A stretch of DNA of 24,905 nt from a virus, in IMG/VR virus record IMGVR_UViG_3300025120_000509, positions 1 through 24,905 of that record. The stretch is one strand, 5' to 3'. Position 1 is the first letter of the stretch, and every line of letters starts with the position of its first letter. Of the stretch, positions 2,113 through 2,498 are shown one piece after another. A program made the position numbers and the translations under genes. The notes beneath the pieces were generated by a model. It saw only the letters and a program-made list of their open reading frames with translations. It had not been told where the DNA came from and did not search any database.

Positions 2113-2119
2113 AGAAAGA

Positions 2120-2156
2120 GCTTAGACGACAAGGGGGAGAGTAATGTCGTCTAAGC
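2120..2156. other. 12-bp perfect inverted repeat (hairpin)
   Basis: Arms GCTTAGACGACA (2120-2131) and TGTCGTCTAAGC (2145-2156) are exact complements with a 13-base purine-rich loop. No T-run follows on either strand, so this is not a standard terminator. On the terminase mRNA the hairpin ends 7 bases before the start codon. On the + strand the loop is SD-like (AAGGGGGAGAG) and runs into ATG at 2144, which opens an 18-codon frame to 2200. Possible roles are translational control, a packaging-site element or protein binding. Confidence 0.75.
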
Positions 2157-2171
2157 ATGAGAGAAGTGAGT

Positions 2172-2443
2172 ACCTAATAATAACACTAATTTTCACATAA
2201 TGTACATAATGTGGACATAATGTGGTAGAAATTAGGTCGAAACCCTTATAGGACCTAGTCTACAGGATTACCTAATGCCATAATGTCATTTTATTGCTAA
2301 ATTTTGATAGTCAGTTCTTGAAAAAGTCAGAGAAATAGAAATTCACATTAGGTGTATTTATAAATTAGGTCTATATGGGAAAGGCTTTTTAGGTCGTTTT
2401 TACCTAATTTACACATAATTTCTAGGTTTTGTTCACATTAGGT
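2172..2443. repeat. cluster of eight TTAGGT/ACCTAA hexamers
   Basis: TTAGGT on the + strand starts at 2232, 2348, 2365, 2389 and 2438. The complement ACCTAA starts at 2172, 2270 and 2402. One-base variants lie at 2253 (ACCTAG) and 2422 (CTAGGT). Two copies are embedded in an identical 12-mer, TTCACATTAGGT (2342-2353 and 2432-2443). The density in about 270 bases far exceeds the chance level for a hexamer. The pattern is iteron-like and suggests an origin, operator or packaging site. Confidence 0.7.
2195..2223. repeat. three ACATAATGT palindromes
   Basis: Exact ACATAATGT copies lie at 2195-2203, 2204-2212 and 2215-2223. Each is a 9-base palindrome centred on A. A near copy (CATAATGT) lies at 2279-2286. 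Adjacent spacing of 9 and 11 bases is close to one helical turn, which suits side-by-side protein binding. They lie upstream of the leftward terminase gene. Which protein binds is unknown. Confidence 0.65.
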
Positions 2444-2475
2444 CCTTGGTCCCTCGTCCTTCGTCCCTAGTCCTT
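2441..2475. repeat. five tandem heptamers, [GCA]GTCC[TC]T
   Basis: Consecutive units are GGTCCTT, GGTCCCT, CGTCCTT, CGTCCCT and AGTCCTT. The sixth base alternates T/C, so there is also a 14-base period. The array abuts the last TTAGGT copy (sharing GGT) and ends 24 bases before the next gene's stop codon. No reading frame uses it. It stands out as a GC-richer, strand-biased (pyrimidine-rich + strand) tract in AT-rich surroundings. Confidence 0.75.
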
Positions 2476-2498
2476 ATAACAACTAACTTTCAACCTTT

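Follow-up and report, generated by a model that had tools for sequence, protein, structure and literature searches.

In SPP1, the pac region overlaps the promoters of the gene for the small terminase subunit (TerS). The TerS protein, gp1, is a repressor of its own synthesis and binds pacL and pacR, between which the cut in pacC is made (PMC6316719, PMC4737164). The TerS of SF6 was reported to have a weak in vitro preference for TTAGGTT (PMC4737164). Packaging specificity in lambda, 21, and N15 is set by the R sites together with the recognition helix (PMC4669245). A 2022 review called it unresolved how the small terminase of a headful phage recognizes that phage's DNA, because the purified proteins bind weakly and without a clear sequence preference (PMC9611059). 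Here, we describe a repeat array in a 24.9-kb virus record, IMGVR_UViG_3300025120_000509 (the whole stretch analyzed, referred to as the window), which lies in the gap at positions 2113 to 2498, 5' of a TerS gene. The array is probably an SPP1-like pac region that is read base-specifically by the phage's own TerS, and it probably acts as the TerS operator as well.

The gene adjoining the gap had been taken for a small terminase gene in a sequence-only reading of this DNA, and a match to PF03592 confirmed it. By sequence comparison, its product belongs to the SPP1/SF6 family. Profile comparison with the SF6 TerS chains 3zqp, 4zc3, and 2cmp gave E values of about 1e-7 to 1e-6, and SF6 entries ranked top in a Foldseek search, with 4zc3 reaching a TM score of 0.69 by target but an E value of 0.13. 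In the TerS profile match, the recognition helices of the window (AGYSKSSASVRASEL) and SF6 (AGYSKNSASAIGAEN) are near-identical, and the heptamer preferred by SF6 TerS includes the hexamer TTAGGT that is repeated in the window. Both genes flanking the gap are encoded by the minus strand. That reading had placed the gap between transcription units, but it does not separate divergent ones.

The four repeated elements reported in this 386-base gap were all found there, far above chance in 5000 dinucleotide shuffles of the gap. TTAGGT/ACCTAA hexamers occur 8 times (0.55 expected, with a shuffle maximum of 5) and ACATAATGT palindromes 3 times (0.002 expected), a 12-bp perfect hairpin was equalled in 8 of the 5000 shuffles, and four GTCC units at a period of 7 were seen in 0 of 5000. 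All 3 copies of ACATAATGT in the window fall within the gap, and within the window the heptad array is also confined to it. The four repeat types had been called independent, but the palindromes and the hexamers are both forms of a single 9-mer, ACATTAKGT, which, with its AAATTAGGT variants, is present in about 11 copies at 2195 to 2443 and reads ACATTATGT, ACATTAGGT, or AAATTAGGT on the TerS strand. The GGAC heptads and the hairpin are distinct from this array. When 400-bp windows were ranked by repeat score, the block came first in the window and in two related records (G003, of lineage D, and G011) and not in the other records, so it is not singled out by repeat density alone.

Relatives were collected by a TerS protein scan of metagenomic viral contigs, which gave 80 loci, and by two more scans, which added HTVC023P-type and D-type loci. 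The relatives with names, whose genomes are about 58 to 62 kb, comprise two pelagiphages (HTVC027P and HTVC023P) and two other phages (DSL-LC04 and 023Pt_psg01); the literature passages searched on HTVC023P, HTVC027P, and DSL-LC04 do not mention the block region. In a DNA search of named phages in general with the gap, the gap itself was unmatched, and the best matches were to the neighboring gene at 2499 to 2729. The blocks upstream of TerS align across lineages through the single-copy elements CCTATAAGGGTTTC and GACTATCA and others, and their words differ: ACATTAKGT in lineage A (that of the window), RTCTAATGT in B, AGGTKMKGT in C, and AACTGAGGT in D. Offsets were measured from the element ATAAGGGTTT as zero, and the site lists, which are approximate, come from consensus matching in representatives of the lineages, one mismatch being allowed. 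With reverse sites marked (-), the sites are at -194(-), -172, -161, -121(-), -104(-), -37, -29, +12(-), +26, +37, and +46 in A; at -217(-), -195, -184, -103(-), -37, -29, +12(-), +26, +37, and +46 in C; at -181(-), -160, -105(-), -29, +12(-), +26, +37, and +45 in D; and at -106(-) and +26 in B, with +12(-) in L012. Sites on the same strand coincide within 1 bp at 7 of 10 positions for A and C, 7 of 8 for A and D, and 5 of 8 for C and D, compared with at most 3, 3, and 2, respectively, at other shifts. The distal module of C is shifted by 23 bp as one unit, with its internal spacing of 22 and 11 intact, and the words are concentrated in the block in every genome checked. The alignment of this gap in relatives, which had been suggested as a check, shows that the positions and orientations of the sites are kept, whereas the word is swapped and the hairpin is restricted to lineage A. 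In HTVC023P, a cultured pelagiphage type, TerS is preceded by a comparable array of CTAGGAA words with a regular layout of its own.

Changes in the word go together with changes in the TerS recognition helix. In a set of 39 dereplicated pairs of TerS and block, word-profile distance was compared with sliding TerS windows by a partial correlation that corrected for the remaining TerS, and the top-correlating windows, SSASVRAS (8 amino acids) and SSASVRASELTN (12 amino acids), correspond to the recognition helix of the helix-turn-helix (HTH) domain (residues 52 to 63); the AlphaFold model has helices at 42 to 48 and 56 to 63. With 6-mer words, the helix value was reached by 8 of 2000 variability-matched column sets for the 39 pairs and by 2 of 2000 for 15 lineages, and the outcome with 7-mers was similar. 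The TerS proteins of B and D are 84% identical, and 6 of their 9 fixed differences are among the 12 helix residues 52 to 63 (Fisher p=3e-5); as the loci are related by descent, neither the matched-set counts nor the fixed-difference counts are formal probabilities. Between B and D, the amino acid difference is 0.49 at the helix and 0.09 to 0.17 elsewhere, about three to five times higher, whereas the difference at third codon positions is only modestly higher at the helix (0.67 versus 0.46 to 0.54). Because the 5' end of TerS and the block are adjacent, recombination could link them, and part of the correlation is linkage, since the third-position signal is also raised near the block. Linkage as the entire cause was rejected by this third-position control, in which the replacement signal peaks at the helix.

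These observations indicate that the array is most likely the address by which the packaging machine chooses the DNA to load. The sites fall into a distal module, a lone reverse site, two adjacent sites, and four proximal sites beside the predicted TerS promoter. The HTH domains of a TerS oligomer would read the words base by base, and the oligomer would gather a long stretch of DNA and then recruit the large terminase subunit (TerL), whose first cut, to judge from SPP1 pacC, may fall in the word-free middle near GACTATCA. At the proximal sites, bound TerS would also block the TerS promoter, which is predicted at the promoter-like sequence 2177 to 2206 (a scan for such sequences gave 3 matches, with 1.8 expected). 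In gene family and position, the locus closely parallels SPP1. As in the SPP1/SF6 pac, a TerS of a homologous family adjoins the site, the repeats lie upstream of the TerS gene and overlap its promoter (as predicted here), and two regions, at which TerS would bind, lie around a middle part. What sets the locus apart is a single 9-mer in as many as 11 copies with a fixed arrangement, and the coordinated exchange of this word from lineage to lineage. The contig ends of six near-complete relatives lie at scattered distances from TerS, which weakly favors permuted DNA.

Several points weigh against this interpretation. The helix signal is weaker with 5-mer words, for which 76 and 103 of 2000 matched sets reach its value, the word measure is crude, and the third-position signal is mildly graded, being raised over the block-side half of TerS. 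The helices of L048/L055 and L012 differ at 6 of 10 positions, yet only the proximal words changed. A comparable array was not seen directly upstream of TerS in HTVC027P and 023Pt_psg01. TerL is several kilobases from TerS in the named relatives, unlike in SPP1/SF6, where the two are adjacent. In addition, the binding of SF6 TerS was concluded to be sequence independent (PMC4737164).

The sequence-only reading had offered a pac/cos site, a replication origin, or a switch, and of these, pac/cos is the best supported because the TerS recognition helix changes along with the word. A switch, in the form of a TerS operator, is plausible as a second role. It is unlikely to be the only one, with TerS or a partner controlling its own promoter and packaging starting elsewhere. 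The proximal sites do abut or overlap the promoter-like sequence, and co-variation with TerS fits an operator equally well, but the layout spans about 250 bp, far past a promoter, with a conserved word-free middle, and one region performs both roles in SPP1.

A lambda-like cosB, in which TerS sites beside a fixed staggered cut give rise to cohesive ends, is a rather doubtful alternative to a pac region. Lambda, 21, and N15, with TerS proteins of the gpNu1 type, have repeated TerS sites with a similar match between site sequence and recognition helix (PMC4669245), and the present data cannot firmly separate pac from cos. In lambda, however, the R sites of cosB, beside cosN, number three, with an IHF site between R3 and R2; in place of three R sites, the block has seven to eleven shorter 9-bp sites in another layout, with another TerS family. 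The scattered ends of the six near-complete relatives and the deposition of two named relatives as circular also argue weakly against one fixed end.

It is improbable that the array is a replication origin with iteron-like sites for some phage initiator that is not TerS. Like iterons, the sites are short, numerous, and oriented both ways within an intergenic stretch rich in A+T, and SPP1 origins likewise consist of direct repeats and an AT-rich part (PMC6316719), but the protein with which the word co-varies is TerS and not an initiator. A Pfam search of 70 proteins encoded by G010, a 60-kb relative of lineage C, found neither an initiator nor an HTH family besides Terminase_2, although unmatched proteins remain. 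Cumulative GC skew had no extreme at the block in most long relatives, which is weak evidence against an origin, and the skew was set aside as uninformative for this purpose. With no other reader found, the origin proposal went unsupported, although the array may have an additional role.

The 56-amino-acid ribbon-helix-helix (RHH)-like protein that had been suggested as the reader is encoded in the window and in 5 of 6 long relatives searched (G009 gave no match; its contig breaks off within the helicase gene upstream and does not reach the location of the RHH gene), and such proteins often bind short repeated words, but an operator of this protein is a highly improbable explanation of the array, and the protein was ruled out as the word reader, because lineages A, B, C, and D, which use different words, share one and the same DNA-reading strand, KWKSVAIR.

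Table 1. Coordinates of the sites and other features in and beside the block (window numbering; letters A to D denote lineages)
Feature	Position	Strand	Remarks
TerS, small terminase subunit, SPP1/SF6 G1P type, 182 amino acids	1564..2112	-	PF03592, E=1.3e-6 (over cut-off); phrog_51
Codons of TerS residues 54-63, HTH recognition helix	1924..1953	-	AlphaFold helices and sliding-window peak
12-bp perfect stem-loop, presumed TerS leader	2120..2156	-	Lineage A only; paired change in L003/L006
Promoter-like TGTACA-18-TATTAT, TG before -10	2177..2206	-	Consensus match only; overlaps two proximal sites
Site +46, ACATTATGT	2195..2203	-	Position kept in A and C; at +45 in D
Site +37, ACATTATGT	2204..2212	-	Kept in A, C, and D
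Site +26, ACATTATGT	2215..2223	-	Position kept in A, B, C, and D
Site +12, reverse orientation, AAATTAGGT	2229..2237	+	Kept in A, C, D, and B (L012)
Scaffold element S4, CCTATAAGGGTTTC, single copy	2239..2252	-	Zero of offsets
Site -29, GCATTAGGT	2270..2278	-	Kept in A, C, and D
Site -37, ACATTATGG	2278..2286	-	Kept in A and C
Scaffold element GACTATCA, single copy	2305..2312	-	Site-free middle
Site -104, reverse orientation, ACATTAGGT	2345..2353	+	A, B, C, and D, within 2 bp
Site -121, AAATTAGGT	2362..2370	+	Among representatives, window only
Distal module site, AAATTAGGT	2402..2410	-	A and C share module spacing of 22 and 11
Distal module site, AAATTATGT	2413..2421	-	
Distal module site, reverse orientation, ACATTAGGT	2435..2443	+	
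GGAC heptad array, five units	2442..2473	-	Distal block edge; separate element

The elements outside the 9-mer array vary among the relatives. The hairpin, which has a good predicted fold, has a C-rich loop, and in L003/L006 its stem is preserved by a paired A-T to G-C change. At the upstream block edge of the same two loci, a second inverted repeat also has paired changes, by eye (GGTCCT...AGGACC versus GGTCTT...AAGACC). GGAC/GGNNCNN heptad arrays were noted in the window and in L106, L108, G010, and G001; in many lineages they sit at the distal block edge, and heptads, including the GGACC type, also occur elsewhere in related genomes. An RHH protein would fit their contiguous period-7 geometry, and the 56-amino-acid protein could read the heptads. 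In lineage C (L013, L014, and relatives), the heptads lie, by eye, inside a small divergent open frame, SPWSFVPKK. A pattern search for the triple ACATAATGT returned the near-identical contig L086 (the same contig as L002) and, in contigs such as L084 (5880 to 6020) and L090 (2900 to 3000), head-to-tail ACATAATGT arrays with a period of 14, a layout unlike that of the window. Near TerS in HTVC027P/023Pt_psg01, CAAGCTT-type or GCGA-type short-period repeats replace the word array (L105, 16500 to 17460; L107, 15350 to 15480).

The type of mechanism proposed here is known already from the SPP1 pac and from the specificity of lambda and 21, and what is new is an array of many sites with coordinated replacement of the word. 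We suggest, only tentatively, that TerS rings of the SPP1-like type read a base-specific code and that this family of marine phages is split into mutually exclusive packaging classes, in which the word at about ten fixed sites has been replaced in concert with a few residues of helix 3. If this is true, it contradicts the published model of sequence-independent binding by SF6 TerS and yields a readable TerS recognition code. Several lineages offer natural matched sets of sites and recognition helices, and an analogous array is present in the abundant HTVC023P-type pelagiphages. Such a code would allow the packaging start to be predicted in uncultured phages and would reveal which co-infecting phages can package each other's DNA.
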